From positions 4,688,501 through 4,752,500 of the forward strand of contig NZ_CP043626.1 of assembly GCF_008807415.1 (NCBI RefSeq): 64,000 nucleotides of DNA, read 5' to 3'. The number at the start of each line of letters is the position of its first letter. The first letter of the stretch is position 1. Both the position numbers and the translations under genes were made by a program. This document shows positions 28,148-47,950 of this stretch, piece by piece. The notes under the pieces are model-generated. The model ran no database searches. It saw only the letters and a list, made by a program, of their open reading frames with translations, and was not told where the DNA came from. The stretch comes from Pseudomonas denitrificans (nom. rej.). Its GTDB lineage: Bacteria; Pseudomonadota; Gammaproteobacteria; Pseudomonadales; Pseudomonadaceae.

Positions 28148-28659
28148 CTCTCCCCCTGCAACACCGCATCCGCGCCGCCGGCCTGCTGCTGCGCAACGAC
28201 GAGATCCTGCTGGTGCGCCACGAGGTAGCCGGGGACGTTTACTGGATTCCGCCGGGCGGCGGCTTCGAGTCGGACAAGGACGAGTCCACCCGCGACACGG
28301 TGCGCCGCGAGTGCCGGGAGGAAACCGGGCTGGTGGTGGAGGTCGGCCCACTGGTCTATGTGCGCGAGTTCGCCGAGCCGGTGGCCGGGCGCTTCCACAT
28401 GGAACTGTTCTACCGCGTGGATGCCTGGGATGGCCGGGTCAGCCTGGACAACCTGCGCGGCCTGGGTGGCGACGAGTTCGATATCCGCGAGGTCGCCTGG
28501 GTACCGCGCCAGGAACTGCCGCGCCTGCCCTCCTACTACCCGCCGAATTGCTCGACGACGTCTGGGAACGCCTGGCCGAGGCGCAGCCGGTCATTCGCCA
28601 CCTCGGCCTGCAGCGCTAGCAGCGTTACTGCACCGGTTCGCTGGTGGGCTTGGCGATGA
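28144..28659 (+). CDS. NUDIX hydrolase with apparent frameshift near the C-terminus
   Basis: The Nudix box is clear: the REUxEExGU part reads RECREETGL, preceded by E-x7 and a Gly-rich loop with one residue more than the standard spacing. It should hydrolyse a nucleoside diphosphate linked to another group. As read, the frame after LPSYYPP becomes Ser/Arg-rich, misses the expected stop and runs 35 bases into the convergent dguC gene. Adding one G after 28545 gives PPELLDDVWERLAEAQ and a stop at 28617-28619, just before dguC. This strongly suggests a one-base deletion, either real or a sequencing error. The start at 28144 overlaps the lipoprotein gene stop. Confidence 0.8.
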   Translation: MTLPLQHRIRAAGLLLRNDEILLVRHEVAGDVYWIPPGGGFESDKDESTRDTVRRECREETGLVVEVGPLVYVREFAEPVAGRFHMELFYRVDAWDGRVSLDNLRGLGGDEFDIREVAWVPRQELPRLPSYYPPNCSTTSGNAWPRRSRSFATSACSASSVTAPVRWWAWR

Positions 28660-29524
28660 TCGCCTGCAGCTCGGCGGTCATGGGGAATTCCAGGTTGAGG
28701 TTCTTCGGCGGGATCGGCTGCTCGAACCAGCGCTGGTAGATGCCCTTGATCTCGCCCGAGGCGTAGAGGTCGGCCAGCGTCTGGTTGACCAGCGCGAGGA
28801 ACTGCGGATCGTCGCGGCGCACCATGCAGGCATAGATTTCCCGCGACTGCGGCTCGCCCACCACTACCCAATGATGCGGGTCGCGCGCCTTGGCCTTCTC
28901 GCCGTAGAGCAATGCGTCATCCATGTAGAAGGCTACCGCGCGGCCGGATTGCAGCATGAGGAAGGCTTCGCCATGGTCCTTGGCGCTGACCACGTTCATG
29001 CCCAGCTTGTGCTCGGCGTTGTAGGCCTTGAGGTAGCGCTCGTTGGTGGTGCCAGCGGTGGTCACCACGTTCTTGCCCTTGAGGTCATCGAAGCCCTGGA
29101 TGCCGCTGTCCTTGGCGATCAGCAACTGGCCCTTCACGTAGATGAAGCCGTAGGAGAAGGCGACCTGCTTCTGGCGCTCTGCGGTGACGCCGGTGGAGCC
29201 GCATTCCAGGTCGACCGTGCCGTTCTGCACCAGCGGGATGCGTGTCTGCGAGGTCACCAGGTTGTACTTCACTTTCAGGTCCGGCTTGTCGAGCTTCTGC
29301 TTGATGCGTTCAACCACCTTTCCGGCCAGGTCCACCGAGTAGCCCATGGGCTGCCCGCTGTTGTCGCCCAGGTAGGAGAACGGCACCGAGGCGTCGCGAT
29401 AACCCAGGGTTATCGCGCCTCGATCGTCGACTTTCTTCAACGTGCCATCCAGCGCTTCGTTCGCCTGCGCCAGCGCGCAGACCAGGCTGGACGCCGCCAG
29501 TATTCCCAGTGCGAGTCGTTTCAT
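28625..29524 (-). CDS. dguC: Periplasmic amino acid-binding protein DguC
   Basis: A 299-residue family 3 solute-binding protein (GltI-like) with a signal peptide cut after about residue 22. It shows VPFSYLGDNSGQPMGYSVDLA and DLECGSTGVTAER segments typical of glutamate/aspartate receptors. It is third in the leftward dgu operon. By synteny with P. aeruginosa PA5082 (dguC) it should bind D-glutamate or a related ligand and feed sensing or uptake. No permease or ATPase gene is adjacent. Confidence 0.88.
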   Translation of the reverse strand: MKRLALGILAASSLVCALAQANEALDGTLKKVDDRGAITLGYRDASVPFSYLGDNSGQPMGYSVDLAGKVVERIKQKLDKPDLKVKYNLVTSQTRIPLVQNGTVDLECGSTGVTAERQKQVAFSYGFIYVKGQLLIAKDSGIQGFDDLKGKNVVTTAGTTNERYLKAYNAEHKLGMNVVSAKDHGEAFLMLQSGRAVAFYMDDALLYGEKAKARDPHHWVVVGEPQSREIYACMVRRDDPQFLALVNQTLADLYASGEIKGIYQRWFEQPIPPKNLNLEFPMTAELQAIIAKPTSEPVQ

Positions 29525-29558
29525 GAGTTCGGTCCCTCTTGTTGTTGTGAGTCGTAGT

Positions 29559-29909
29559 TCAAGGGCGCGCGGCGATCACCGTGATTTCCACCAGCACCGA
29601 CGGCCGCGCCAGCAGCGCCTGCACCGTGGTGCGGGTCGGCGCGCAGCCTTCGGGCAACCAGGCGGACCAGATGCCGTTCATGGCTTCGAAGTCCGCGGCG
29701 ATGTCCTTCAGGTAAATGGTCGCGCTGAGGATGTTCGCCTTCCCGGTGCCGGCTTCAGCCAGTAGTGCGTCGATCTTCGCCAGCACCTCGCCGGTCTGGC
29801 CCTGGATATCGGTGGCCTGACCGGGCACCTGCCCGGAGAGGAAAACCAGCGAGCCGAAGACCATAGCGCCGGATAGGCGGTCGTTGGTGGCGATGCGTGT
29901 GAGTTGCAT
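29559..29909 (-). CDS. dguB: RidA-family protein DguB
   Basis: 116 residues with the YjgF/RidA fold signature: VFLSGQVPG near the start, a conserved-type Arg in PTRTTVQA (about 93-100) and VEITVIAA at the end. RidA proteins hydrolyse reactive imines or enamines to ketoacids. Here it follows dguA, whose product from D-glutamate would be an iminoacid, so a role in speeding release of 2-oxoglutarate is plausible. GGAGACC lies before the start. Confidence 0.9.
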   Translation of the reverse strand: MQLTRIATNDRLSGAMVFGSLVFLSGQVPGQATDIQGQTGEVLAKIDALLAEAGTGKANILSATIYLKDIAADFEAMNGIWSAWLPEGCAPTRTTVQALLARPSVLVEITVIAARP

Positions 29910-29934
29910 GGTGGGTCTCCTAAATCCGATGGAA

Positions 29935-31191
29935 TCAGCCGGCCAGCCGTTCGGGGGTCAGGCCGCTGGTGTCGATGGCGGGTTTGCTCCCACTGATCTG
30001 CGCGGCGATCAGCTGTGCGCTGCCGCAGGCCAAGGTAAAACCGAGAGCGCCGTGACCGAGGTTGAGCCACAGGCCGCGCGGCCCGCACGCGCCCACCAGC
30101 GGCACGCCAGTGGGTGTGGCCGGGCGCATGCCGGCCCATTCGATGGCGGCGCCGTAGTCGCAAGCGTCCGGCAGGGTATCCGCCGCCTGCTGGCGGATCA
30201 GCGCCAGCCGTTTGGGCTCCAGGCTCGGGTCGAAGCCGACGATGTCGACCATGGCGGCAATGCGCAGGCGCTCGCCGATGCGCGCGTAGACCACCTTGCG
30301 GTCGTAGTCGGTCAGGCTCACGTCCGGCGCGTGATCATTGGCGCGGATCGGCGCGGTCAGGCTGTAGCCCTTCAGCGGATAGAGCGGCAGGCGCGGCCCG
30401 CGCGGCAGCAGTGCTGCGCTGCGGTAGCCGGCGGCGAGCACGACGTGATCGGCCTCGAAGCTTTCCACACCAGCCGCCCCGCCCGCCTCCACGCCTGCCA
30501 CGGCGCCGTTGCGCAGAATCAACCGGGATGCCGGATGGCCATGGAGGATGCGGCAGCGCCCGGACGCCTGAAGCCGCTCCGCCAGCCGCTGGCAGAACAG
30601 GAAGCAGTCGGCAACCTCCTCGTCCGGCGTATGGATGCCACCGACGAAGGGCGCGCGCTCCAACGCCGGGTCCAGCTCGCGGCACTGCTGCGCCGAGAGC
30701 ACGAATTGTTCGGCAGGGTCGGACAGGTTCTGCCTCGCACTGAGGAAGCTGCCTTCATCGCGGAAGGCCACCAGCTTGCCGTTGCGCCGCCAGTCGAAGC
30801 CGTCCAGCCCATCCTCGCGCCACTGCGCCAATGTAGCCTGGCTGAACAGCGCAAGACGCAGAAGGCGTTTGGCGTTGGCCTGGTTCACCGAGCGCCGGCA
30901 GGCGGCGGTGAACTCCAGCAGCCAGCGCCATTGCGCCGGGTCCAGGCGCGGGCGCAGGCGCAGCGGCGAGTCCCCGCGCAGCAGCCAGCCCAGCGCCTGC
31001 TGCGGCACGCCGGCATCGGCCAGCGGCGCGACATAGCGGTAGGACAGCTGGCCGCCGTTGGCGAAGCTGGTTTCCAGCCCGGCCTGATCCCGCGCCTCCA
31101 GCACGGTGACGTCGAAGCCTTCGAGGACCAGCGCCTGGGCCGTGGCCAGCCCGACCACGCCCGCGCCGATGATGCAAACCCGCTGTGCCAT
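29935..31191 (-). CDS. dguA: FAD-dependent D-amino acid dehydrogenase DguA
   Basis: A 418-residue DadA-type flavoenzyme. The N-terminal VCIIGAGVVGLATA is the FAD Rossmann motif, followed by ETSFANGGQLSY, a DadA family hallmark; WAGMRPATPTGVP and GHGALGFTLACGSA lie near the end. It oxidises a D-amino acid; by synteny with PA5084 of dguRABC the substrate is D-glutamate/D-glutamine. A start six codons upstream (31209) is also possible; 31191 places the Rossmann motif at the usual distance. First gene of the operon, divergent from dguR. Confidence 0.9.
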   Translation of the reverse strand: MAQRVCIIGAGVVGLATAQALVLEGFDVTVLEARDQAGLETSFANGGQLSYRYVAPLADAGVPQQALGWLLRGDSPLRLRPRLDPAQWRWLLEFTAACRRSVNQANAKRLLRLALFSQATLAQWREDGLDGFDWRRNGKLVAFRDEGSFLSARQNLSDPAEQFVLSAQQCRELDPALERAPFVGGIHTPDEEVADCFLFCQRLAERLQASGRCRILHGHPASRLILRNGAVAGVEAGGAAGVESFEADHVVLAAGYRSAALLPRGPRLPLYPLKGYSLTAPIRANDHAPDVSLTDYDRKVVYARIGERLRIAAMVDIVGFDPSLEPKRLALIRQQAADTLPDACDYGAAIEWAGMRPATPTGVPLVGACGPRGLWLNLGHGALGFTLACGSAQLIAAQISGSKPAIDTSGLTPERLAG

Positions 31192-31263
31192 TGCCGTCTC
31201 ACTGCCCATCCAAACCTGGCCTCGACCTTAGGCGCGGGTGACAGGCGGCGAACAATGAATAAA

Positions 31264-31321: not shown

Positions 31322-32233
31322 ATGCGCCTGCGCCATATCGAAGTGTTCCAGGCCATCCGCGAGACCGGCTCGGTCAGCGGCGCCGCGCAATTGCTGCACG
31401 TCTCGCAGCCGGCGGTGACCAAGGTGCTGCAGCATGCCGAGCAGCAGTTGGGCTTCCCGCTCTTTCTCCGTGTTCGCGGAAAGTTGCAGGCGACACCCGA
31501 GGCGCTGGAGCTGGAGCGCGAAGTGGCCAAGGTCAGCGAAAGCCTGCAGGGCGTGCGGCGCCTCGCGCAGAGCCTGCGCGGCCAGCCGGAAAACCGCCTG
31601 CGCGTGGGCGCCACGCCGGCGATGGCGCTATCGCTGCTGCCGCCAGTGATTCGCGAATGGACCGACCGCTACCCGCAGAGCAGCTGCGAACTGGCGACCC
31701 AGCACTCCCGCGAGCTGGTGCAGAACCTGCTGATGCGCGAACTCGACCTCGCCCTCACCCTGCAGCAGACCGACCACCCCGGCCTGCGCTCGCAGCCCAT
31801 CGCCAGCGGCCCGCTGGTCGCCCTGGCGCCGCGCGGCCACTGGCCGGCGGAGCACCTCGGCCAGCCCCTGACACTGAACGAACTGGCCGGCGAACCGATG
31901 ATCGGGCTGTCCACTTCCGACCCGCTGTCCGCCCGCCTGGAAAGCCATCTGGCCAACGTCGAACCGCCACCGCGCGTGCGCATCGCGGTGCAGACCTATG
32001 CGTTGGCAAGAACACTGGTGGAAGCCGGCACCGGACTGGCGCTGGTCGACCCCTTTACCGCCCTGGGTGCAGACGAGCGCCTGACAGTGCAGCGAACCTT
32101 GTCACCCACCGTAAAGGTGACGCTCTATGCCCTGACCCGCGCCGACGAAACCCCGCCGCACACCCAGGCGCTGCTGCTGGAAATGCTGGTGCGGCATGCC
32201 GAGAAGCAACTGGCGCAGCACCGCTTCGAATAG
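31322..32233 (+). CDS. dguR: LysR-family regulator DguR
   Basis: A 303-residue LysR protein: HTH at residues 3-60 (GSVSGAAQLLHVSQPAVTKVLQHAEQQLG), then an effector-binding domain. It is divergent from dguABC, as in P. aeruginosa where DguR activates the operon in response to D-glutamate. GGAGGC lies at normal spacing before the start. Confidence 0.9.
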   Translation: MRLRHIEVFQAIRETGSVSGAAQLLHVSQPAVTKVLQHAEQQLGFPLFLRVRGKLQATPEALELEREVAKVSESLQGVRRLAQSLRGQPENRLRVGATPAMALSLLPPVIREWTDRYPQSSCELATQHSRELVQNLLMRELDLALTLQQTDHPGLRSQPIASGPLVALAPRGHWPAEHLGQPLTLNELAGEPMIGLSTSDPLSARLESHLANVEPPPRVRIAVQTYALARTLVEAGTGLALVDPFTALGADERLTVQRTLSPTVKVTLYALTRADETPPHTQALLLEMLVRHAEKQLAQHRFE

Positions 32234-33363: not shown

Positions 33364-34167
33364 TCAGCGGCCGTAGCGCTCGCGGCCCCAGGCGATGAAG
33401 GTTTCCAGCAGGCGCCGGAGCACCTGGGCGGTCGGCGCGGCGAGGTCTTCGCGGTAGCCAAACGGCGCCTGCTCATCCATGTAGTTGCACTGCGCGAGTT
33501 CCAGTTGCACCGCGTGCACGTTGTCCTGCGGCTGGCCGTAGTGGCGGGTGATGTGTCCGCCCTTGAAGCGGCCGTTGAGGATGTGCCGGTAGGCCGGCGC
33601 ATCGGCGCACACCGCGACCAGTCGCTCGGCCAGCTCCGCGTCGCAGCTCGCGCCGCTGTTGGTGCCGATGTTGAAGTCCGGCAGCTTGCCGTCGAACAGG
33701 TGCGGGATCACCGAGGCAATCGAGTGGGCGTCCCACAGTAGTGCGTAGCCGAATTCGGCCTTCAGGCGCGCCAGCTCCCCGGCCAGGGTGCGGTGGTAGG
33801 GCGTCCAGACTTCGGCGAGGTAGCGCGCGCGCTCTTCGGGCGACGGCGTCTGGCCGTCCTTGAACAGCGGGCGGCCGTCGAACAGGGTGTCCGGGTAGAG
33901 GCCGGTGGTGGCGGTGCTGTACAGCGGCTTGTCGTCGGCCGGGCGGTTGAGATCGATGACGTAGCGCGAGTAGCCGGCAGCCAGGGTGCTGGCGCCCAGT
34001 TCGTCGGCGAAGGCATAGAGCTGCGGGATGTGCCAGTCGGTGTCGGCCAGCTCGCGGGCTTCATCTACCAGGCCGTTTTCCACGGCTGGGGTCAGGCGGA
34101 TGCCGGGGTGCGGCATGCTGATCAGCAGCGGTACGCGACCGCGTTTGAAATCGAGAACGTTGTCCAT
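33364..34167 (-). CDS. hutG: N-formylglutamate deformylase
   Basis: A 267-residue amidohydrolase releasing formate and glutamate from N-formylglutamate, the last step of the five-step histidine route. The FGA family signature is present: MPHPGIRL near the start, a Tyr/Asp-rich middle with DLNRP, LLWDAHSI, and GGHITRHYG. It is the most downstream gene of the leftward hut operon and is separated from hutI by a REP-like palindrome. Confidence 0.93.
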   Translation of the reverse strand: MDNVLDFKRGRVPLLISMPHPGIRLTPAVENGLVDEARELADTDWHIPQLYAFADELGASTLAAGYSRYVIDLNRPADDKPLYSTATTGLYPDTLFDGRPLFKDGQTPSPEERARYLAEVWTPYHRTLAGELARLKAEFGYALLWDAHSIASVIPHLFDGKLPDFNIGTNSGASCDAELAERLVAVCADAPAYRHILNGRFKGGHITRHYGQPQDNVHAVQLELAQCNYMDEQAPFGYREDLAAPTAQVLRRLLETFIAWGRERYGR

Positions 34168-34299: not shown

Positions 34300-35496
34300 T
34301 CACAGCTCTTCGCCGTGACGAATGACGCGCTTGGGCAGGTCGCCTCCGAGCCAGTAGGCGAGTTCGGCGGGGCGCTGGATGTCCCAGGCGATGAAGTCGG
34401 CGACCTTGCCCGCTTCCAGGCTGCCGTGGCTGCCGGCCATGCCCAGTGCGCGCGCGGCGTTGAGGGTGACGCCGGCCAGCGCTTCTTCCGGGGTCAGGCG
34501 GAAGGCGGTGCAGGCCATGTTCAGCATCAGGCGCAGGGACAGCGCGGGCGAGGTGCCGGGGTTGAGATCGCTGGCAATGGCGATGTGCACGCCGTGCTTG
34601 CGCAGGGCATCCATCGGCGGCAGCTGAGTTTCGCGCAGGACGAAGAAGGCCCCCGGTAGCAGCACGGCGACGGTGCCGGCCTCGGCCATGGCGATGGCGT
34701 CGCTCTCGTCCATGAATTCCAGGTGGTCGGCGGACAGCGCGCCATAGCGCGCAGCGAGGCTGGAGCCATGTAGCGAGGACAGTTGCTCGGCATGCAGCTT
34801 CACCGGCAAGCCCAGGCGCTGTGCTGCCTGGAATACCCGCTCGACCTGCGCCGGGGAGAATGCCAGGTGCTCGCAGAAGGCGTCTACCGCGTCCACCAGC
34901 CCCTCTTCGGCCAGCGCCGGGAGGATGTGATTGCAGACCTGCTCGATGTACTCGTCAGCGCGGCCGGCGTATTCCGGCGGCAAGGCGTGGGCGGACAGGC
35001 AGGTGGTGCGCACCGTCACCGGCAGCTCCTGCTCCAGGCGACGGGCAACCCGCAGCATGCGCTGCTCGCTGTCCAGGTCCAGGCCGTAGCCGGATTTCAC
35101 TTCCAGCACGGTCACGCCATCGGCCAGCAGCGGGCGGGCGCGCTTGATGGCGCTGGCCAGCAGTTCGTCCTCGCTGGCTTCGCGGGTGGCGCGCACGGTA
35201 CTGGCGATACCGCCGCCGGCTGCGGCGATCTCGGCATAGCTGACACCGTTCAGGCGCTGCTCGAACTCGCCGCTGCGGTCACCGCCGAACACCAGGTGGG
35301 TATGGCAGTCGATGAAGCCGGGCGTGACCCAGGCGCCGCCCAGGTCGGTGCTCTGGATGGGGCGTTCGGGCAGTTCGGCGCGCGGGCCGATCCAGATGAT
35401 GCGCTCGCCCTCGGTGATGATCGCGGCGTCCTCGATGATCGAGTAACGGCCGTCCTTCATGGTCGCTGCGTGGCAGTGCTGCCAGAGGTGTTTCAT
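34300..35496 (-). CDS. hutI: Imidazolonepropionase
   Basis: A 398-residue amidohydrolase opening the imidazolone ring to N-formimino-glutamate (step three of histidine breakdown). Metal ligands appear in [18 protein letters not shown], with further His in the KLHAEQLS and SADHLEF segments, and a late Asp in IASDLNPGT. Length is typical. Its start overlaps the stop of the HutH-like gene by four bases. Confidence 0.95.
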
Positions 35497-37025
35497 TGCA
35501 GTCTCCCGATGCTCGCGCCGACGCTGTGCAGCGCCGCCGGGTTGGCCAGCAGCTCGGCGGCGCGGGCGATGTCCGGCGCCAGCCAGCGATCGCTGTCATA
35601 GGCCGGCACCTGCTCGCGCAACAGGCTCCAGGCGCAGTCGGTGCCGCTGCCGAAACGCTGCGGCTTGAGGAATTCGAAGGCCTGGGCGGCCAGCAGGTAT
35701 TCGATGGCGAGGATGCGCCGGCTGTTGTCCAGGGCGCGGCCGAGCTTGAGCGCGGCGCTGGTGCCCAGGCTCAGGTGGTCTTCCTGCAGGCCGGAGGTGA
35801 CGAAGTTGTCCACCACCGCCGGCTGCGCCAGCTGGCGGTTCTCGCCGGCCAGCGAGGCGGCGACGTACTGCACGATCATCATCCCCGAGTTGACCCCCGG
35901 CTTGCTGACCAGGAAGGCCGGCAGGCCGCTGACCAGCGGGTTGATCAGGCGGTCCAGGCGACGCTCGGAGACCCCGCCCAGCTCGGCCACGGCAATTGCC
36001 AGCAGGTCGGCGGCCATGGCCACGGATTCGCCGTGGGGGTTGGCCTGGGACACCACCCGGTAGTCGTCCGGCGTGCCCAGCACCAGCGGGTTGTCGGTGG
36101 CGGAATTGAGTTCGGTCTCGATCTGTTTCGCCGCATGCTCCAACTGGTCGCGGCAGGCGCCGTGGATCTGCGGCATGGAGCGGATACTCAGGGCGTCCTG
36201 GGTGCGGATACCCTTGCTGCTCGCGATCACTTCGCTGCCCTCGAGCAGCGCGCGCAGGTTGGCGCCGACCTTCTGCATGCCCGGGTGCGGCTTGAGCGCG
36301 ATGATCTCGGCGTCGAAGGCATCGATCTGCCCGCGCAGGGCTTCGAAGCTCATGGCGCCGATCACGTCGGCCCACTGCGCGAGGCGATTTGCCTCGTCGA
36401 GGGCGAGGCAGCTCAGCCCGGTCATGCAGGGTGTGCCGTTGACCAGGCAGAGCCCGTCCTTCGCGCCCAGCTGCACCGGCTCCAGGCCTTCGGCGGCCAG
36501 CGCCTGGAAGGCCGGCACCACTTCGCCGCGATAGCTCACTTCACCGATCCCGAGCAGCGCCACGCCGACATGGGCCATGTGGGTCAGGTAGCCCACCGAG
36601 CCCTGTGCCGGTACGCGCGGGGTGATGCCGTGGTTGAGCAGCGCCAGCAGTGCTTCCACCACGCGACGGTGCAGGCCGGATTTGCCATGGCTGTAGTTGG
36701 CGATGGCGGCGGCGATGATCGCGCGGGTCTGTTCGTCCTTGAGCGGCTCGCCCACGCCGCATGCATGGCTGAGCAAGGTGTTGCGCGACAGCTGCGCCAG
36801 TTGCTCGCCCTGCAGCACCACGCTGCACAGCGCGCCAAGGCCCGTGCTGATGCCGTAGGCCCGCTCGCCCCGGCTGACGATGCGCTCGACGATGCCGTGG
36901 GCGTTGTCGATGCGTGCCCAGGCGGCCGTCGACAGTTGCAGGTGCGCGCCCTGGCGGGCCACCTCGACCAGGTCCTGCCAGCGCAGCGGGCCGTTGCCGA
37001 AGGTGATGGTGGAAGAGGACGACAT
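35493..37025 (-). CDS. HutH-like aromatic amino acid lyase paralogue lacking the MIO triad
   Basis: 510 residues, homologous along its whole length to histidine ammonia-lyase. In active enzymes GSVG is followed by [10 protein letters not shown], whose Ala-Ser-Gly makes the MIO cofactor. Here residues 142-151 read [10 protein letters not shown]: the three MIO residues are missing and the rest aligns without gap. The active-site Tyr of HutH (in DPYSLRCQP) is Ala ([10 protein letters not shown]), and the Phe in GNFHAEP is Pro. Tyr57, the Asn of LVNGT and the Glu of QEDH remain. The same cluster has an intact HutH (44775-46304). The gene overlaps hutI and resembles PA5093. It may be a changed enzyme, a regulatory pseudoenzyme, or act on another ligand. 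Confidence 0.85.
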
Positions 37026-37074: not shown

Positions 37075-37890
37075 TTACAGCGCGGCGACGCGGCGCTGGA
37101 CGAAGCGGTCGACGTACTCGTCGGCGGGCTTGTGCAGGATGTCAGCGGGCGCGCCCACCTGGATCAGCTGGCCGTCCTTGAGGATGGCGATCCGGTTGCC
37201 GATGCGCACGGCTTCATCGAGGTCGTGGGTGATGAAGACGATGGTCTTGTGCAGGGTCTTCTGCAGCTCCAGCAGCTGGTCCTGCATGTCCGCGCGGATC
37301 AGCGGGTCGAGGGCGCTGAAGGCTTCGTCCATGAGGATGATGTCGGTGTCCGCGGCCAGTGCGCGGGCCAGGCCGACGCGCTGGCGCATGCCGCCGGAAA
37401 GCTGGTGCGGGTAGGACTTCTCGTAGCCCTTCAGGCCCACGGTGGCGATCCAGTGCAGCGCGCGCTCCTGGCACAGCGCCTTGCTCTCGCCACGGATCTT
37501 CAGGCCGTAGGCGACGTTGTCGAGCACGCTCTTGTGCGGCAGCAGACCGAAGCTCTGGAACACCATGCTGATCTTGCGCCGGCGGAAGTTCTCCAGCGCG
37601 GCCGAGTCATAGGCGAGCACATCCTCGCCATCCACCAGGATCTGCCCGCTGGTGGGGTCGATCAGGCGGTTGAAGTGGCGCACCAGGGTCGACTTGCCGG
37701 AGCCGGACAGGCCCATGATGACGAAGATTTCCCCGGCCTCGATGGATAGCGAGAGGTCGTTGACGCCGACCACGCAATCGGTGGCGGCGAGCACCTCGGC
37801 CTTGCTCTTGCCCTGGCGGATCATCGCCAGCGCCGCATCGGCCTTGGCGCCGAAGATCTTGTAGACGTTCTTGACCTGGATCTTGCTCAT
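37075..37890 (-). CDS. hutV: Histidine/betaine-type ABC transporter ATP-binding protein HutV
   Basis: A 271-residue ATPase of the ProV/ChoV class: an N-terminal extension with a GKSKAEVLAAT segment, GLSGSGKSTL, LSGGMRQRVGLARAL, ILMDEAFSALDPLIR and a THDLDEA switch. No CBS domains follow, unlike osmotic ProV. Its place in the hut operon with a permease and binding protein indicates histidine or urocanate uptake. It overlaps the permease gene by four bases. Confidence 0.9.
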   Translation of the reverse strand: MSKIQVKNVYKIFGAKADAALAMIRQGKSKAEVLAATDCVVGVNDLSLSIEAGEIFVIMGLSGSGKSTLVRHFNRLIDPTSGQILVDGEDVLAYDSAALENFRRRKISMVFQSFGLLPHKSVLDNVAYGLKIRGESKALCQERALHWIATVGLKGYEKSYPHQLSGGMRQRVGLARALAADTDIILMDEAFSALDPLIRADMQDQLLELQKTLHKTIVFITHDLDEAVRIGNRIAILKDGQLIQVGAPADILHKPADEYVDRFVQRRVAAL

Positions 37891-38741
37891 TTGCTGGCCT
37901 CATGGTGGCGCGAGCGGCCGTATGCCTGGGTGATGCGGTCGATGACCACGGCGAGGATGACGATGGCCAGACCCGCTTCGAGCCCCTTGCCGACGTTGAG
38001 CGTCTGGATGCCCACCAGCACGTCCTCGCCCAGCCCACGGGCGCCGATCATCGAGGCGATGACCACCATCGACAGGGCCATCATGGTGGTCTGGTTGATG
38101 CCGGCCATGATGCTCGGCAGCGCCAGCGGCAGCTGCACGCCGAACAGTTGCTGGCGGCGGTTGGCGCCGAAGGCGGTGATGGCTTCCATCACCTCGCGGT
38201 CGACCTGGCGAATCCCCAGGTCGGTGAGGCGGATCAGCGGCGGAGCGGCGTAGATCACGGTGGCGAAGATCGCCGGCACCTTGCCCAGGCCGAACAGCAT
38301 CAGCACCGGGATCAGGTACACGAAGCTGGGCATGGTCTGCATGATGTCCAGCATCGGCAGCAGCACCGCGCGGAAGCGGTCGCTGCGGGCGGCGACGATG
38401 CCCAGCGGGATGCCGATCAGCACCGAGATGATGGTCGCCACCATCATCAGCGCGAGGGTCTGCATCAGCTTGTCCCACAGGCCCACGGCGCCTACCAGGA
38501 ACAGCAGGCCGACGATGACCACGGTCGGCAGGATGCGCCGGGTGGCGTGCCAGGCGATGCCGGCGACGATGGCCAGCATCAGCCACCAGGGAGTGGCCCG
38601 CAGCACGCTCTCCAGGTTGACGATGGCCCACAGCAGGGTGTCGGAGATGTGGCGGAACACGTCGCCGTAGTTGGTAACCAGGGCATCGACCCAACCGTTG
38701 ACCCAGTCGGCGATGGAGAAAGTGAAGCGTTCGGGAAACAT
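37887..38741 (-). CDS. hutW: ABC transporter permease HutW
   Basis: A 284-residue ProW-like permease with an N-terminal soluble stretch and about six helices. The docking loop (residues about 190-215) includes AITAFGANRRQQLFGVQLP, typical of betaine/proline-class permeases. Four-base overlap with hutV. It lies 62 bases after the binding-protein gene, with a hairpin in that gap. Confidence 0.9.
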   Translation of the reverse strand: MFPERFTFSIADWVNGWVDALVTNYGDVFRHISDTLLWAIVNLESVLRATPWWLMLAIVAGIAWHATRRILPTVVIVGLLFLVGAVGLWDKLMQTLALMMVATIISVLIGIPLGIVAARSDRFRAVLLPMLDIMQTMPSFVYLIPVLMLFGLGKVPAIFATVIYAAPPLIRLTDLGIRQVDREVMEAITAFGANRRQQLFGVQLPLALPSIMAGINQTTMMALSMVVIASMIGARGLGEDVLVGIQTLNVGKGLEAGLAIVILAVVIDRITQAYGRSRHHEASK

Positions 38742-38803: not shown

Positions 38804-39775
38804 TCAGAGCGCGGCCTGGACCTTCTTCGCAGCGTCCTCGCTGACCCAGGTGGTCCACACTTCCGGGTGCTCCTTGAGGAAGGCCTTGGCCAGTTGCTCG
38901 GAGGAGAGTTTCTCCTTGGCCATCTTCGCCAGGTTCTGGTTCAGCAGGTCGATGGGCAGGTTGACCTTCTCCAGCACCGCCACCAGTTCCGGGGCCTGAT
39001 CGTGGAAGGCCTTGGACAGGCCGACCTGGATCTTCACATCCTTGTTCACGCCCGGCTCGTCCAGCTTCACCAGGTCGGCCTGGCCCATCAGCGGCGTCGG
39101 CGACCAGTAGTAGAAGAGGATAGGCTCCTTGCGCTTGTAGCTCGACAGCACGGCGGCATCCAGGGCCGGGCCGGTGCCGGGGCGGAAGTTGGTGTACTTG
39201 TCCTCGAGGCCGTACTTCTTCAGCATCTCGGAGTTTTCCAGCTCGCAGGTCCAGCCGGCCGGGCAGTTGTAGAAGCGGCCCTTGCCCGGCTCTTCCGGGT
39301 CGCGGAAGACTTCGGAGTACTGCGCAAGGTCGGTCACGGCCTTCAGGTTCGGCGCCTTGGCTTCGATGTTGCGCGCCTTGTCGCCCTCGATCACGAAGCG
39401 CGGTACGTACCAGCCCTCGGTGGCGCCGACGATGGGCGCGCCCACGCCGACCACTTTGTTCGCGGCGGCGGCCTTGTTCCAGGCGTCGCTGCGGCCGATC
39501 CATTCCTCACTGAATATCTGGATGTCGTTGTTCGCCAGCGCCTGCTCCATGGTGATGGAGTTGCCCGGCAGGCTGTCGGTTTCGCAGCCGTAGCCGTTCT
39601 TCAGGATGATCTGCATGAGGTCGGTGAGCAGCATGCCGCTCTCCCAGTTCAGCCCGGCGAACTTCACCGGCTTGCCACTCTCGCACCAGCCGGCGGCCTG
39701 GGCCGATGCCAGGGTGCCGCCCAGCAGTCCGGCGGACAGGAACAGGCCCAGCAGCGTCTTCTTGGTGTTGTTCAT
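38804..39775 (-). CDS. hutX: ABC transporter periplasmic binding protein HutX
   Basis: A 323-residue betaine/proline/histidine-type binding protein with a signal peptide cut near residue 27. Key segments are KFAGLNWESGM, ILKNGYGCETDSLPGN, FYNCPAGWTCE (two Cys likely bridged) and FYYWSPTPLM with aromatic residues that could cage a ligand. It heads the transporter genes hutXWV. It is clearly paralogous to the protein at 43526-44539. Confidence 0.9.
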   Translation of the reverse strand: MNNTKKTLLGLFLSAGLLGGTLASAQAAGWCESGKPVKFAGLNWESGMLLTDLMQIILKNGYGCETDSLPGNSITMEQALANNDIQIFSEEWIGRSDAWNKAAAANKVVGVGAPIVGATEGWYVPRFVIEGDKARNIEAKAPNLKAVTDLAQYSEVFRDPEEPGKGRFYNCPAGWTCELENSEMLKKYGLEDKYTNFRPGTGPALDAAVLSSYKRKEPILFYYWSPTPLMGQADLVKLDEPGVNKDVKIQVGLSKAFHDQAPELVAVLEKVNLPIDLLNQNLAKMAKEKLSSEQLAKAFLKEHPEVWTTWVSEDAAKKVQAAL

Positions 39776-39854: not shown

Positions 39855-41267
39855 TCAGGTGCGGGCCGGCAGGATCAGCCGGTCCGGTACTGCCCGCGTG
39901 ACGCGGCGGGCGACCAGGTAATAGAGAACGGCCGGAACCACGAGGCCGATGATCCAGGAGATATCCACGCCACCCAGGGCATCCACCAGCGGGCCGGTGT
40001 AGAACTTGGTGGAGATGAAGGGCAGCTGCACCAGCACGCCGATCACGTAGACGCTGATGCCGGGGATGTTCCAGCGGCCGTAGCGGCCATCGGGATCAGC
40101 CAGCGCCGGCACGTCGTAATGCTCGCGGGTGATGCAGTAGTAGTCGACCAGGTTGACCGCGCTCCACGGGGTGAAGAAGGCCAGCAGGAAGAGGATGAAG
40201 GACTTGAAGGCGCCGAGGAACGAATGCTGGCCGAGCAGCGCGATCAGGGTCGCGGCGCCGACGATCAGCAGGACGAATACCAGGCGCTGCACGCGGCTCA
40301 CTTCCAGGTGGCCACGGAAGCCGCTGATCACCGTGGCGATGCACATGAAGCTGCCGTAGGAGTTCAGCGTCGAGATAGTGATCTTGCCGAAGGCGATGCT
40401 GAAATACAGCAGCGCGGCGACGGCGCCACTGCCGCTCAGGCCGACGATGTAGGCCACTTCATGGCCGGCGAACTGGCCGTTGGCCCCGGCCGCGGCGAAC
40501 ACGCCGAAGATCATCGCCACCTGCGCGCCGATCACCGAACCTGCGCCCACGGCGAGGAAGGTCTTCACCGAGGAAGTCTTGCTCGGCAGGTAGCGCGAGT
40601 AGTCGGCGACATAGGGGCCGAAGGCGATCTGCCAGGAGGCGGCCAGGGACACCGCGAGCAGGAAGCTGCTCCAGCTGAAATGACGAATCTGCAGCAGCGC
40701 GCTGACGTCGGTCTGGTTCACCAGGCGGCTGAACAGGTAGATGAAGGCGATCACCCCGATGATGCTGGCGATGCGGCCGATCACGTGGATCACCCGGTAG
40801 CCGAGCACGGTCACCAGCACGATCACGCTGGCGAACATCAGGATGCCGACGCTGTCGCTGACGCCGAACAGCTGGCCCAGCGCCTGGCCGGACAGCACCG
40901 TGCCGGTGGCGGTGAAGCCCAGGTACATCAGGCACACCAGCACGATCGGAATGGCCGCGCCGTAGACGCCGAACTGCACGCGGCTGGAGATCATCTGCGG
41001 CAGGCCGAGCTTCGGCCCTTGCGCGGCATGCAGCGCCATCACGCCGCCGCCCAGCAGCTGGCCGATGAGCAGGCCGATCAGCGACCAGAACACATCGCCG
41101 CCCAGCACCACGGCCAGGGCGCCGGTGACGATGGCGGTGATCTGCAGGTTGGCACCCAGCCACAGGGTGAACTGGCTGTAGAGCTTGCCGTGGCGCTCGG
41201 CCTCGGGGAGGTAGTTGATCGAACGCACTTCGATCAGGGGGTTGGAGCTATCACTGGCCTGGGACAT
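39855..41267 (-). CDS. NCS1-family permease (cytosine/purine/allantoin type)
   Basis: A 470-residue secondary transporter with about twelve helices and NCS1 features, including a GANLQI segment in helix 1 and a YVADYSRYLP segment. It lies in the hut operon between hutU and hutX, so it probably imports histidine or urocanate rather than a nucleobase, but this is inference from context (a PA5099-like gene). The start at 41267 has GGGAGAAC upstream. Confidence 0.85.
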   Translation of the reverse strand: MSQASDSSNPLIEVRSINYLPEAERHGKLYSQFTLWLGANLQITAIVTGALAVVLGGDVFWSLIGLLIGQLLGGGVMALHAAQGPKLGLPQMISSRVQFGVYGAAIPIVLVCLMYLGFTATGTVLSGQALGQLFGVSDSVGILMFASVIVLVTVLGYRVIHVIGRIASIIGVIAFIYLFSRLVNQTDVSALLQIRHFSWSSFLLAVSLAASWQIAFGPYVADYSRYLPSKTSSVKTFLAVGAGSVIGAQVAMIFGVFAAAGANGQFAGHEVAYIVGLSGSGAVAALLYFSIAFGKITISTLNSYGSFMCIATVISGFRGHLEVSRVQRLVFVLLIVGAATLIALLGQHSFLGAFKSFILFLLAFFTPWSAVNLVDYYCITREHYDVPALADPDGRYGRWNIPGISVYVIGVLVQLPFISTKFYTGPLVDALGGVDISWIIGLVVPAVLYYLVARRVTRAVPDRLILPART

Positions 41268-41394
41268 CGTTATTGTTCTCCCGAAGGGATTTATTGTCTG
41301 TCGATGTACTGCTGCTTCACGGACCGGGCCGCCGCACGACACCGTGCGGCGGCCCTCTCCCTGGTCCTGAATTTCTGCTACCGAATTACCGGTC

Positions 41395-41469
41395 CGTAGG
41401 GCGCATAACGCGCCAGCGTTATCCGCCGACACAACGGCGGATAACCTGTTCCAGGTTATGCGCCCCACG
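41395..41469. repeat. Cloverleaf-like palindromic repeat, copy 3
   Basis: Outer arms CGTAGGGCG and CGCCCCACG (one mismatch), inner stems ATAACGC/GCGTTAT, ATCCGCCG/CGGCGGAT and ATAACCTG/CAGGTTAT. It lies three bases from the hutU stop, inside the hut operon. Confidence 0.85.
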
Positions 41470-41472
41470 CGA

Positions 41473-43140
<1,668 letters not shown>

Positions 43141-43234
43141 GGAAGGCTCCTTCGCTTTGCTCGGGTCGTTGGCCGTGGGGGCGGCCTGGCGGTTCGTTCG
43201 ACGGTGTCGAGGGGTCGCCACCATCATGTCTATG

Positions 43235-43248
43235 CTTGTATGTACAAG
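43235..43248. promoter_or_regulatory. HutC operator at hutU
   Basis: CTTGTA-TG-TACAAG, perfect six-base arms, close to the known Pseudomonas HutC site. It is centred where transcription from the adjacent sigma54 promoter should begin, so bound HutC would block initiation. Confidence 0.85.
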
Positions 43249-43252
43249 TATA

Positions 43253-43268
43253 AGCAAAGCAAGGGCCA
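43253..43268 (-). promoter_or_regulatory. Sigma54-type promoter of hutU
   Basis: On the minus strand the sequence reads TGGCCC-TTGCT-TTGCT: GG and GC with exactly ten bases between, matching the -24/-12 consensus (TGGCAC-N5-TTGCW) with one change. Transcription should start near 43242. hutU is known to be sigma54/CbrB-dependent in other Pseudomonas. Confidence 0.7.
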
Positions 43269-43525
43269 ACCTTGGCTGGCGGGGTATTCCGCCAGCTATT
43301 CACCTAGATCAACTGATTGATTTATAAGGATTAAAACAGAATTCTAGTGATTCGCTGGCGGCTGACAGACATCGCTGTCCTTCAGACAATTGCACCAAAA
43401 GCAGGCTTCGCTGCACCGTTTCGTTGCGTTCGGTAACACCGCTCGCTACCAAGGGACACAGGTTGTATAGACAAGCTATGTCCGAGCAGGAAATGCAAGT
43501 CGGCAGCGAACCGCATACTGCCGCG
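43269..43525. other. Upstream control region of hutU
   Basis: A non-coding stretch between the second binding-protein gene and the hutU promoter. It is AT-rich around 43311-43345, unlike the rest of the window, and includes ATCAACTGATTG (43308-43319), one base short of the IHF consensus. This is where an enhancer-binding protein such as CbrB or NtrC would act; no specific site for it could be fixed by eye. Confidence 0.5.
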
Positions 43526-44539
43526 CTACTTCAACGCCGCATCGATCCGCGTCGCCGCCTCCGCCGTCACCCACTTCGACCACAGCTCCCGATGCTCGCG
43601 GAAGAACGTCGCCCGCACGTCCGCCACGTCCCGGTGGTGCTCGGCCATGTCCGCCAGCAGCGCGTTGAACAGCGGCAACGGCAGCTCGACCTTCTCGAAC
43701 ACCTGCACCAGCGCCGGCGCCTTGTCATGGAAGTCGCGGGACACGCCGATGCTGATCTTCGCCGGCAGCGAGCGCGAGCCCTTCGGGTTGGGATCGTTGA
43801 CATCGGTCAGGGTCTTCCACGCCGCCTCGTCGAACGGCGGCTCCTCCAGCTGCACCAGCTTGAAGCGCCCCAGCAGCGGCGTCGGTGCCCAGTAATAGAA
43901 GAGCACCGGCTTGCCCTGGGCGATGGCCGAGCTGATCGCCGCATCCAGCGCAGGGCCGGCGCCGGTGCGGAAGTTCACGAAGCTGTCCGTGAGCCCGTAG
44001 GCCTTGAGCTTCTGCGTGTTGACGATCTCGCAGGTCCAGCCGGTGGGGCAGTTGTAGAAGCGCCCCTTGTCCGGCTCCTCGTCATCCTTGAACAGCGCCT
44101 TGTACCTGGGCAGGTCGCTGACGGACTTCAGCTCCGGCGCAGAGGCCTTGATGCCCCGCTTCGCGTCGCCGTGCACCACGTAATCCGGCACCCACCAGCC
44201 TTCATTCGCGCCCTTCACCGTCTCGCCCACGGAGAACACCTGGCCGGCCTTCTCCGCCTGCTGCCAGACGGTGCTGCGCCCGGCCCATTGCTCGCCGGTG
44301 ACCTGGATATCGTTCTGCTTCAGCGCGTTCTCCATGGTCACGGTGTTACCCGGCACGGCGTCGGTCTGACAGCCGTAGCCCTTCTCCAGGATGAAGCGCA
44401 GCACGTCGGTGGTGAACATGCCGCTTTCCCAGTTCAGCCCGGCGAACACCACAGGCTTCGGATAGGGGCAGGCGGCGAAGGTTTGCGCGCACAGGCCCAG
44501 GGCCAGCAGCAGCGCGAACAGGCAACGGGGGGTGGACAT
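43526..44539 (-). CDS. Second HutX-like periplasmic binding protein
   Basis: A 337-residue exported protein with a signal peptide cut near residue 22. It aligns with HutX (38804-39775) throughout: VVFAGLNWESGM, EKGYGCQTDAVPGN, FYNCPTGWTCE and FYYWAPTPLL correspond to HutX segments. About half the residues look identical by eye. A short insertion (around the FDEAAWKTLTDV stretch) is extra. No permease or ATPase is adjacent, so it may share HutWV. Its start faces hutH across a region with a HutC operator. The frame upstream of 44539 was rejected because the signal peptide begins there. Confidence 0.87.
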   Translation of the reverse strand: MSTPRCLFALLLALGLCAQTFAACPYPKPVVFAGLNWESGMFTTDVLRFILEKGYGCQTDAVPGNTVTMENALKQNDIQVTGEQWAGRSTVWQQAEKAGQVFSVGETVKGANEGWWVPDYVVHGDAKRGIKASAPELKSVSDLPRYKALFKDDEEPDKGRFYNCPTGWTCEIVNTQKLKAYGLTDSFVNFRTGAGPALDAAISSAIAQGKPVLFYYWAPTPLLGRFKLVQLEEPPFDEAAWKTLTDVNDPNPKGSRSLPAKISIGVSRDFHDKAPALVQVFEKVELPLPLFNALLADMAEHHRDVADVRATFFREHRELWSKWVTAEAATRIDAALK

Positions 44540-44718
44540 GGGCGTCTCCGGGCGCGTTGGTGTCCCATTGGGTTTAGCCGCCGATCCGCGTTTTGCCCAC
44601 GACCATCGGACTGGAAATGCCACCGGCGGTGACATTCACGCCCTCCATGCACCACCGCACGCCAGGGTGAAATGCCGAACCACGCGCCCCTGCGTGCCAT
44701 GGCATAGCGATTGCTATA

Positions 44719-44774: not shown

Positions 44775-46304
44775 ATGTCCGAAACCCTGCTCCTGACGCC
44801 CGGCCAGTTCGACCTCGACCAGCTGCGCGCCATCTACCAGCACCAACCCGACCTGCAGCTCGCGGACCATTGCCGCGAAGCCATCCTGCGCAGCGCGCAG
44901 ACGGTCAGCCAGATCATCGCCGACCAGCGCACCGTCTACGGCATCAACACCGGCTTCGGCCTGCTGGCGCGCACCTCCATCGCCGAGGACCAGCTCGCCA
45001 CCCTGCAGCGCAACCTGATCCTCTCCCACTGCACCGGCACCGGCCCACTGCTGGACGACGCCAGCGTGGCGCTGATCATGGCGCTGAAGATCGGCTCCCT
45101 GGCGCGCGGGTTCTCGGGCGTCGGCCTGCCGGTGATCGAGACACTGCTCAAGCTGTACCAGGCGCGGGTCTACCCGTGCATCCCGTCGCAAGGCTCGGTG
45201 GGCGCCTCGGGCGACCTCGCGCCGCTGGCGCACATGTCCTCGACCCTGCTGGGCGTCGGCCAGGTGCGCCATGAAGGGCACATCCTCGAAGCCACCGAAG
45301 GCCTCGCCATCGCCGGCGCCGAGCCGCTGGTGCTGGGGCCCAAGGAGGGCCTGGCGCTGATCAACGGCACCCAGGTGTCCACCGCGCTGGCCCTGCGCGG
45401 GTTGTTCGCGGTGGAGAAGCTGTTCATCTCGGCCGTGGTCGCCGGCAGCCTGACGGTGGAAGCGCTGAAGGGCTCGTTCGTGCCCTTCGATGCGCGCATC
45501 CAGGAAGTACGCGGCCAGCCGGGGCAGATCGCGGTCGCCGCGCTGTACCGCGAGCTGCTGCACGACAGCCCGATCAACCACTCGCACATCGACTGCAAGC
45601 GCGTGCAGGACCCGTACTCGCTGCGCTGCCAGCCACAGGTGATGGGCGCATGCCTGGATCACCTGCGCTTCGCCGCTGGCGTTTTCCTGCGCGAGGCCAA
45701 TGCCGTTTCCGACAACCCTCTGGTGTTCAGCGCTGACGGCGATGTTCTGTCAGGCGGTAACTTCCACGCCGAGCCGGTGGCCATGGCCTCCGACGTGCTG
45801 GCGCTGGCGATCTCGGAGATCGGCGCGCTGTCCGAGCGGCGCATCGCCCAACTGGTGGACCCGGCGATGTCCGGGCTGCCGGCCTTCCTGGTCAAGGAAG
45901 GCGGGCTGAACTCCGGCTTCATGATCGCCCAGGTCACCTCGGCGGCCCTGGCCTCGGAAAACAAGACCTGGGCCCACCCGGCCTCGGTGGACAGCCTGCC
46001 GACCTCGGCGAACCAGGAAGACCACGTCTCCATGGCCACCTTCGCCGCCCGCCGCCTGCAGGACATGGCCGGCAACAGCGCCGGCGTGGTCGCCATCGAA
46101 CTGCTCGCCGCCGCGCAAGGCGTGGACTTCCACGCGCCGCTGCAGAGTTCTCCGCAACTGCAGGAAGTGCGCACGCTGATCCGCAGCCAGGTGCCGCACT
46201 ACGAGCAGGACCGCTACTTCGCCCCGGACATCGCCGCGGCGCGGGCGTGGGTGGAGGATGGGGTGATGAGCCGCTGGATCGGTTACGCGCGGCTGTACTC
46301 GTAA
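44775..46304 (+). CDS. hutH: Histidine ammonia-lyase
   Basis: A 509-residue enzyme removing ammonia from L-histidine to give urocanate. The MIO-forming Ala144-Ser145-Gly146 lies in [15 protein letters not shown]; the catalytic Tyr (VYGINTGFG), the Asn of LINGTQ, Tyr-Ser-Leu-Arg of [16 protein letters not shown] and Glu in NQEDHVSM are all present. It is transcribed opposite to hutU and the rest of the catabolic operon, with its own HutC operator. A palindromic repeat and a bidirectional terminator follow. Confidence 0.97.
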
Positions 46305-46475: not shown

Positions 46476-47066
46476 TCAGCATGCATCGAGTTCGATCACG
46501 CTGATATCCGCACTCCCCACCACCGTCAACCGCCACTCGCGCAACGAACCGTCGCCCTCGGCGATCAATGTGTCATGCAGGCCCAGCACACCGCTGGCCG
46601 CGCCGTTGAGGCTGACATGGATGCCCTCGCCCGCACTGAACAACAGCACGGTCGAAGCGCTGCTGAAGAAGTGCACCGAGCCATCCAGCTTCAGCCATTG
46701 CAGGCGCGCACGGTAGCGAGCCGGCGAATAGATCAGGTTGAAGTCGCGGATCGCGCCGCCCAACAGCGTGCAATCCACCGCACTAGCGCCATCGAAGGCA
46801 AAGGCATCGAGCGCGCGCAGGTCGCGGGAGTCGGCGCCATCCACCTTCAGCCGCATGCCCTCGCCTTCCAGCACGCTGATGACGCGCTGGTAGCCGGTGA
46901 ACGCGGAGAACGGGCCCGGTGCGCCGACGTCGGCGATGGACACGCGCCAGCCGAAACCTTCCAGGCCGTCGCCGGCGTCGCGGACGATCTCGCGGGTGGT
47001 GCCCGCGCCGTTCTTCCAGGGCATTGCCGGATAGTCGGCGGCGCGCAGCAACTTGGTTGCGATCAT
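46476..47066 (-). CDS. hutD: HutD family cupin protein
   Basis: A 196-residue protein of the HutD/Ves cupin family. The N-terminal MPWKNGAGTTREI and GFGWRVSIADV segments are characteristic. HutD is not an enzyme of the pathway; in P. fluorescens it is reported to limit hut activity, possibly by binding N-formylglutamate. The start at 47066 overlaps the hutC stop as ATGA, so hutCD are coupled. Confidence 0.93.
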   Translation of the reverse strand: MIATKLLRAADYPAMPWKNGAGTTREIVRDAGDGLEGFGWRVSIADVGAPGPFSAFTGYQRVISVLEGEGMRLKVDGADSRDLRALDAFAFDGASAVDCTLLGGAIRDFNLIYSPARYRARLQWLKLDGSVHFFSSASTVLLFSAGEGIHVSLNGAASGVLGLHDTLIAEGDGSLREWRLTVVGSADISVIELDAC

Positions 47067-47830
47067 GAACTGAAACGTCCTTCCAGGCGGTAGCGCGAGC
47101 CCGGATACAGCAGGCGCGCGCTGGTGACGGTATTGCGCCCCGACCAGGTGCGCCGGCGGATCAGCAGGCACGGCTCATGGCGGTCGACGGACAGCAGCTT
47201 GCATTCCTCCGGGCTGGGCAGCACCGCCTCGACCACATGCTCGCCCTCGCTCAGCGGCGCCACTTGTGTGAGGTAGGCGAACGGCGTCTGCCCGGTGAAA
47301 TCCTGCTTCATGTAGTCCGGCGCCACGGCCGCGTTGACGTAGCGGTCCTCGATCTGCACCGGGATGTCGTTCTCGTAGTGCACGATGATCGAGTGGAAGA
47401 TGCGCTGCCCTTCGCGCACATCCAGCGCCAGCGCGCGCTCGGCGGTGGCCAGTTCCTCGATCAGGCTGACCACCACGCAGTGGTGCTTGTGACCGCGGGC
47501 GGTGATTTCCTCGGCGATGTTCTGCACCTGGAACAACGCCGACTGGCCCTTGGGCTCGGCGACGAAGGTGCCCACGCCCTGCATGCGCACCAGCAGGCCG
47601 TCGGCGGTCAACTCGCGCAGCGCGCGGTTGATGGTCATGCGGCTGACGCTCAGTTCCTCGACCAGCTCCGCCTCGGAGGGCACGCGGTGGTGCGGCGGCC
47701 AGGTGCCGGACTGGATCTGCTGGATGATCAGCTGCTTGACACGGGCATACAGCGGCGCGGGAATTTCCCCCATCTGCGCGGCGAGCGACGAACCCTCGGC
47801 GGGCGGGGTAGGCGTGGACGATGCGGGCAC
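47063..47830 (-). CDS. hutC: Histidine utilisation repressor HutC
   Basis: A 255-residue GntR/HutC-family regulator: N-terminal winged HTH (VPSEAELVEELSVSRMTINRALREL, about 45-85), then a UTRA ligand domain with QNIAEEITARGH and EDRYVNAAVAPDY. Urocanate is the known inducer. The start is taken as GTG at 47830 because AAGGAG lies at correct spacing; an ATG 17 codons downstream is an alternative, and the frame upstream is not conserved. It is divergent from hutF with an operator between them, so it probably represses itself. Confidence 0.93.
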   Translation of the reverse strand: MPASSTPTPPAEGSSLAAQMGEIPAPLYARVKQLIIQQIQSGTWPPHHRVPSEAELVEELSVSRMTINRALRELTADGLLVRMQGVGTFVAEPKGQSALFQVQNIAEEITARGHKHHCVVVSLIEELATAERALALDVREGQRIFHSIIVHYENDIPVQIEDRYVNAAVAPDYMKQDFTGQTPFAYLTQVAPLSEGEHVVEAVLPSPEECKLLSVDRHEPCLLIRRRTWSGRNTVTSARLLYPGSRYRLEGRFSS

Positions 47831-47950
47831 GGGAAACTCCTTGTCGTGGCGACGGCTGGTCTGACTCCGGCATGTACCGGATTCGACCGGTGCATACAAG
47901 CCCTCTGACGACCGTCGAGTGCCTTGCAGTTTACGGTCTCGGCAAACGTC

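Follow-up and report, generated by a model that had tools for sequence, protein, structure and literature searches.

A MIO-less paralogue of histidine ammonia-lyase in the hut clusters of Proteobacteria: a probable hercynine trimethylamine-lyase

The hut operon of Pseudomonas denitrificans (nom. rej.) lies in a stretch of 64,000 nucleotides (contig NZ_CP043626.1, positions 4,688,501 to 4,752,500; hereafter the window) and encodes, in addition to canonical histidine ammonia-lyase (HAL; HutH), a HutH paralogue that lacks the residues forming the 4-methylideneimidazole-5-one (MIO) cofactor. The paralogue belongs to a family for which the label class Y lyase is coined here. Given the loss of MIO throughout the family, the kept active-site residues, the predicted fold, the genomic links and the purifying selection reported below, we infer the substrate, the chemistry and the residue roles: class Y is probably a MIO-independent lyase that converts hercynine (N-alpha-trimethyl-L-histidine) into urocanate and trimethylamine. 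It also seems likely, at a slightly lower level of confidence, that widespread, misannotated MIO-free hercynine lyases constitute a second entrance to the hut pathway in Proteobacteria, and the sole entrance in some genomes, whose 'hut operon' would then have a purpose other than histidine use.

The window lyase gene starts with ATG and comprises an open reading frame of 510 codons, of which the stop overlaps the ATG of hutI by 4 bp (ATGA at 35493-35496); the nearest protein is that of Pseudomonas sp. NPDC086581 (P0001, 98% identical). The original prediction, an in-frame, full-length gene that overlaps hutI inside the hut operon and lacks the Ala-Ser-Gly triad, was correct on each of these points. 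In the alignment with the window HutH, 11 residues of the lyase stand opposite 14 residues of HutH and Ala-Ser-Gly is gone; whether this is described as a deletion of Ala-Ser-Gly with exchange of Asp for Tyr, or as a replacement of ASGD by Tyr, is an arbitrary choice.

The family was represented by 233 aligned rows (228 distinct), i.e. the query, its 120 closest proteins, and 112 loci, which consist of a first set of 20, of 80 from named genomes (Rhizobium, Sinorhizobium, Neorhizobium, Paraburkholderia, Burkholderia, Nitrospirillum, Leisingera, and others) and of 12 from a second family within that order; the 80 loci of named genomes are the top 80 matches to a rhizobial query and not an even sample. 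Tyrosine occupies the MIO site in all 233 rows, and Ala-Ser-Gly is present in all 33 HutH rows. A local deletion, for which the original prediction had considered close relatives with Ala-Ser-Gly, is not what was found, as GASGD occurs in none of the 120 closest proteins. Among 397 evenly drawn genomes of Proteobacteria, with at most three candidates scored per genome, 27 contained a protein of at least 438 bits to the query, and each of the 27 carries the Tyr motif; the next match (384 bits) has Ala-Ser-Gly.

The window lyase is predicted to belong to the HAL/PAL/TAL fold. The HAL residues Y53, H83, N195, Q277, Y280, R283, F329 and E414 correspond to Tyr57, H87, N196, Q276, L279, R282, P330 and E415 of the window lyase, respectively, and six of these (Y53, H83, N195, Q277, R283 and E414 in HAL numbering) are invariant in all 233 rows. 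The original prediction had noted that Tyr57, the Asn of the NGT motif (N196) and the Glu of QEDH (E415) are kept, which proved right and holds for H87, Q276 and R282 as well. The changes within the scored active site are confined to MIO itself and its partners Y280 and F329. Leucine replaces Tyr280 in 233 of 233 class Y rows; the motif reads QDALSIR in the window lyase and QDPYSLR in HutH, hence the Ala that had been taken for the substitute of this Tyr stands for the preceding Pro. The exchange of Phe for Pro in the GNFHAEP motif was read correctly for the window lyase, and for F329 the family has either Pro (143 rows) or Ala (90 rows). At position 387, tyrosine is found in all 233 class Y rows, whereas HutH has Val (32 of 33 rows, one gap) and the ergothionase class (class E, see below) has Lys (12 of 12 rows). 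In comparison to the HAL of Pseudomonas putida (PDB 1b8f), class Y lacks Ala-Ser-Gly and shows the exchanges Y280 to Leu, F329 to Pro or Ala, and Val to Tyr387. As Tyr at the MIO site, Leu279 and Tyr387 are constant in all rows, the loss of MIO is an old and fixed trait of class Y.

Conservation of the motif and purifying selection had been proposed as checks of the original prediction, and both were observed. The median ratio of nonsynonymous to synonymous substitution rates (dN/dS) was 0.19 for class Y (45 pairs, 10 genomes), therefore the gene is maintained; HutH gave 0.057 (15 pairs, 6 genomes), i.e. the constraint on class Y is weaker, in a comparison for which the genome sets of the two families differ and open reading frames were taken from stop to stop. 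A pseudogene or local deletion is ruled out by the family-wide alignment together with dN/dS. The idea that a GFP-like chromophore had replaced MIO was rejected as well, since the motif is Gly-Tyr-Leu and no Gly follows the Tyr. Two apparent fusions of the lyase with an ATP-binding cassette (ABC) transporter ATPase (P0007 and P0008; 785 and 726 amino acids, each with two Pfam domains) were treated as frameshift or assembly artefacts and were not used as evidence; in P0007 the reading frame appears to continue across a HutV tail with a frameshift, and P0008 is a shortened HutV joined to the lyase.

Ammonia leaves poorly, which is why HutH depends on MIO. Trimethylamine leaves well by itself, and MIO could therefore be lost, as in ergothionase. 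In the proposed pathway, hercynine, which is made by fungi and actinobacteria on the way to ergothioneine, would be imported by HutXWV, the betaine-type ABC importer encoded just upstream of the lyase; the lyase would catalyze 1,2-elimination of trimethylamine from hercynine to yield urocanate, and HutU, HutI, HutF and HutG would then carry urocanate to glutamate. Tyr146, in the place of MIO, would be positioned beside the substrate amine position of HAL, and its ring could, with those of the invariant Tyr57 and of Tyr387, enclose the trimethylammonium group in an aromatic cage; H87, N196, Q276, R282 and E415 would hold the imidazole and the carboxylate. The links with HutU, HutI and HutC would be explained by urocanate as the product, and hercynine is proposed as the substrate because it fits both histidine-like and betaine-like importers.

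An elimination of this kind is known from ergothionase (Treponema denticola, PDB 6s7j and 6s7q; Burkholderia sp. HME13), which works without MIO in a HAL fold (PMC13405746). Class Y and class E were joined in trees with a bootstrap of 98-99; the support was 99/94 at first, 98/91 after removal of the trait columns and of the long T. denticola row, and 98/93 after addition of lyases linked to thiourocanate hydratase; class Y is placed as a sister to the ergothionases and not inside their clade (100/99 for class E and 100/99 for class Y). The comparison of residues was based on the T. denticola chain: ergothionase and class Y both have Leu for Tyr280 (in class E, 12 of 12 rows) and both have kept the equivalents of Tyr53, Gln277, Arg283 and Glu414, but the deletion at the MIO site is of one residue in the ergothionase class (EGD, EAD, CAD, AAD or AGD at the site) and of three residues in class Y, and the Lys of the ergothionase QK, EK or IK motif (residue 383 in 6s7j by counting) is Tyr in class Y.

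Further class E relatives are found in Rhizobiaceae-like genomes (family f59) and in genome G254 (L038:4510-6045, L159-L171); they are, like class Y, MIO-less and have Leu for Tyr280 in the aligned rows, but differ from class Y in having kept the ergothionase Lys and in their GSxGAAD or GSxGAGD motif. One of these genes (in L038) adjoins an Opu/Pro-type transporter. In six stretches around such genes (L172-L177), no HutU-like or thiourocanate-hydratase-like match was obtained by quick annotation.

Class Y might itself be an ergothionase that converts ergothioneine (or its sulfonate) to thiourocanate (or the sulfonate analogue) and trimethylamine; we consider this improbable. Where class E has Lys (12 of 12 rows), every one of the 233 class Y rows has Tyr, and the window HutU is a urocanase, with 1034.5 bits to the hutU model and 693.9 bits to the thiourocanate hydratase model (cut-off, 930); no thiourocanate hydratase above the cut-off is found in the genome of the window (G000). 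Thiourocanate hydratases above the cut-off were detected in 7 of 200 genomes of a family that contains Burkholderia (f20) and in 4 of 299 genomes of the phylum, and when 18 kb were fetched for each of these 11 loci, a class E lyase was found in six and a class Y lyase in none; the class was judged by the motifs of the lyases and confirmed by alignment, in which six class E rows and no class Y row derive from such loci. Three genomes (G043, G107 and G209) contain lyases of both classes at separate loci. The thiourocanate hydratase reference taken from L178 (longest open reading frame) may be a shadow frame; true copies matched HutU at approximately 50%.

The genomic surroundings of class Y were compared for the 112 loci (107 distinct), for which neighbours were named by BLAST matches to a small reference set, with family scans for selected proteins. 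A transporter gene is located directly upstream on the same strand in 80 of the 107 loci and is of one of three unrelated types: a HisJQMP-like ABC transporter in 53 (Burkholderia, Paraburkholderia, many Rhizobium, and others), a ProXWV-like betaine ABC transporter, as in the window, in 14 (Pseudomonas, part of the rhizobia, and genome G303), and a BCCT betaine carrier in 13 (family f3). Hence, a transporter of quaternary-amine type precedes the lyase in 27 loci. The BCCT proteins, of which two were scanned, belong to the betaine/carnitine/choline family (PF02028, E-values 9e-117 and 2e-119), and their genes are located between hutU and the lyase with gaps of -91 to +5 bp, i.e. with ends close to each other or overlapping. 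At least one hut gene was recognised in 97 of the 107 loci, with HutC-like proteins (BLAST matches of at least 80 bits) in 91, HutI in 48 and HutU in 41. In Burkholderia and Rhizobium, the lyase gene often has its own transporter and HutC-like regulator while hutH is absent from the fetched stretch.

In the Pseudomonadaceae (198 genomes), the lyase was found in 54 genomes, a HutX at least 76% identical in 49, and both in 48; when a looser tier of HutX (68-71% identical) was added, 51 of 62 genomes had the lyase. The genomes are related, so Fisher p-values for this co-occurrence are not independent. HutX and the lyase are 1.7-1.9 kb apart in 14 of 15 genomes compared, and 6.5 kb in one.

Twenty lyase-bearing genomes were searched with the window HutH. 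A close HutH (481-766 bits, 52-72% identical) was present in 15, and no canonical HutH was found in the other five, all of one genus (G254, G417, G442, G499 and G518). In these five genomes, the MIO-less lyase itself gives the highest score (280-300 bits), followed by a paralogue (229-238 bits) that has Ala-Ser-Gly but Gln for E414 and is 71-73% identical to a third HAL-like gene of the window's genome (L003, G000:C1:4637789-4639156). L003 likewise has Ala-Ser-Gly and Gln for E414 and is no HutH. The order in all five genomes is hutU-BCCT-lyase-hutI, adjoined by hutF, a hutC-like gene and hutD, and one of them (G254) carries a class E protein as well. In these genomes, a betaine carrier and the MIO-less lyase seem to be the sole supply of the urocanate pathway, and the hut cluster may serve a betaine and not histidine.

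These genomes bear on two other explanations. A reserve HutH, i.e. a histidine ammonia-lyase that works without MIO, would be in line with the hut cluster of the five genomes, which has no HutH-like gene besides the lyase, and with the NCBIfam hutH equivalog model, which accepts the window lyase (TIGR01225; 544.4 bits, cut-off 539.15); HAL chemistry, however, requires MIO, a close HutH is kept in 15 of the 20 genomes, and the adjacency of BCCT would be left unexplained, so that we regard this as very unlikely. Equally slight is the chance of a non-catalytic paralogue, either a HutH-binding regulator or a sensor of urocanate or histidine, as two ideas of the original prediction had it. The lost cofactor, the location in the hut operon and the dN/dS of 0.19, compared to 0.057 for HutH, would fit such a role; against it stand the active-site residues, which apart from F329 are invariant among those scored and show no decay, the occurrence of the lyase in five genomes where a canonical HutH was not found, and the dedicated transporter in stretches of Burkholderia and Rhizobium without hutH. 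The third idea, a MIO-independent enzyme, gains support from the kept residues, the kinship with ergothionase, and the transporter and HutC-like regulator that often accompany the gene where hutH is absent from the fetched stretch; histidine betaine had not been among the substrates considered.

Several observations weigh against a hercynine lyase. The sister relation to the ergothionases hangs on one distant outgroup row, and alternative placements were not rejected by the approximately unbiased test (p 0.086 and 0.072). The five genomes without HutH are drafts (completeness 96-100%), and a sixth lyase-bearing genome of the genus (G431) has a HutH of 72% identity and no BCCT match before the lyase. 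None of the three transporters is encoded directly upstream in 27 of the 107 loci, where hutF (6), a hutC-like gene (5), hutU (1) or nothing recognised (15) was found instead. Ten loci, two of them on short pieces (L142 and L146), have no recognised hut gene, and the HutC-like matches are not proven orthologues. In one genus (g4), a HutX relative of 68-71% identity occurs mostly without the lyase (lyase in 3 of 13 genomes). ProXWV-like systems can also carry histidine or proline, as in S. meliloti. No gene for the use of trimethylamine was identified beside the lyase, and no search by family was made for such genes. Finally, 53 of the 80 upstream transporters are HisJQMP-like, and for the one HisJ-type binding protein that was compared (L034) the nearest PDB entries are nopaline- and octopine-binding proteins, so that the substrate may be an N-substituted histidine besides the trimethyl form.

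In that case, class Y would be a lyase that acts without MIO on such a compound (N,N-dimethyl- or N-methylhistidine, a histidine opine or a histidine metallophore) and frees the amine of the substituent and urocanate. A gene for an N-methyltryptophan-oxidase-like flavoenzyme is located directly downstream of the lyase in 14 of the 107 loci, in Rhizobium (L041:9729-10889, L044, L101, and others; 416 bits on NF008425 with a cut-off of 257 for L041, the one scanned), which suggests a joint handling of N-methylated amino acids there. Protonated secondary and tertiary amines leave less well without MIO, and BCCT (13 loci) and ProXWV-like transporters (14 loci) point to quaternary amines; a substrate of this kind is hence unlikely, although less so than the other alternatives.

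In our reading, the acceptance of the window lyase by TIGR01225 is a false positive; the three divergent class Y proteins scanned score below the cut-off (458-467 bits). The named nearest proteins are annotated as histidine ammonia-lyase, histidine/phenylalanine ammonia-lyase or HAL/PAL/TAL family. HutH1 of Pseudomonas fluorescens SBW25 and PA5093 of P. aeruginosa, which we take by name to be the putative counterparts, would presumably be encoded behind hutXWV and before hutH/hutI, as is the case in L050 and L051; to our knowledge, they have been described only as a second histidase copy, with neither a loss of MIO nor a substrate reported. In the window, the order is MIO-less lyase, hutI, hutG; PA5093 is presumably the lyase. 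In one study, PA5093 is labelled 'hutG' and its mutant grows poorly on urocanate (PMC12772324). If PA5093 is the lyase, this label is probably a slip, or else the urocanate phenotype of a lyase mutant has another cause such as polarity. No literature was found that joins hercynine, urocanate and lyase, or histidine ammonia-lyase, MIO and ergothioneine, in what was a weak check of novelty.

A hercynine lyase would account for the second hutH that many pseudomonads carry and correct an annotation that is repeated in databases. It would also add a second lineage of MIO-less lyases, of which ergothionase has been the one so far, and would illustrate how a protein-derived cofactor can become dispensable to an enzyme once the substrate brings its own leaving group. 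Furthermore, bacteria with such a lyase might be a source of trimethylamine that has gone unrecognised, and might turn over histidine betaine in soil and in the surroundings of plants and fungi.

The features of the window are summarized in Table 1. The closest solved structures to the HutX-like protein are glycine betaine/proline-type binding proteins, and canonical hutH is followed by hutD, hutC and hutF.

Table 1. Coordinates of the class Y lyase gene, of its key codons, and of the surrounding hut cluster in the window
Feature	Position	Strand	Basis or remark
Class Y lyase, MIO-less HutH paralogue, 510 aa; proposed hercynine trimethylamine-lyase	35493..37025	-	
GSVGYLTH codons, residues 142-149; Tyr146 at the place of the MIO-forming Ala-Ser-Gly of HutH	36579..36602	-	
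Leu279 codon, equivalent to HAL Tyr280	36189..36191	-	
Tyr387 codon	35865..35867	-	alignment of class Y, class E and HutH
Glu415 codon, equivalent to HAL Glu414, kept	35781..35783	-	
hutG	33364..34167	-	
hutI	34300..35496	-	shares 4 bp (ATGA) with lyase
hutV-like ATPase, betaine/proline/choline ABC family	37075..37890	-	TIGR01186 above cut-off
hutW-like permease	37887..38741	-	best NCBIfam match ChoW, below cut-off; then ProW
hutX-like binding protein	38804..39775	-	ProX-like, below cut-off
NCS1-type permease in hut operon; possible urocanate or histidine carrier	39855..41468	-	
hutU, true urocanate hydratase	41473..43269	-	1034.5 bits to hutU model
Second HutX-like binding protein, between hutU and hutH	43526..44635	-	55% identical to HutX over residues 6-243
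Canonical hutH with Ala-Ser-Gly, opposite transcription	44775..46304	+	
hutC-like GntR regulator	47063..47899	-	named from hut context

The second HutX-like protein has no permease of its own alongside and possibly provides HutWV with a second ligand. Just past hutG (28625-31209) lie genes for a DadA-like FAD oxidase and a putative binding protein of amino-acid type, both named by eye; these genes adjoin a LysR-like gene (31322-32233), and the arrangement is conserved in L052.

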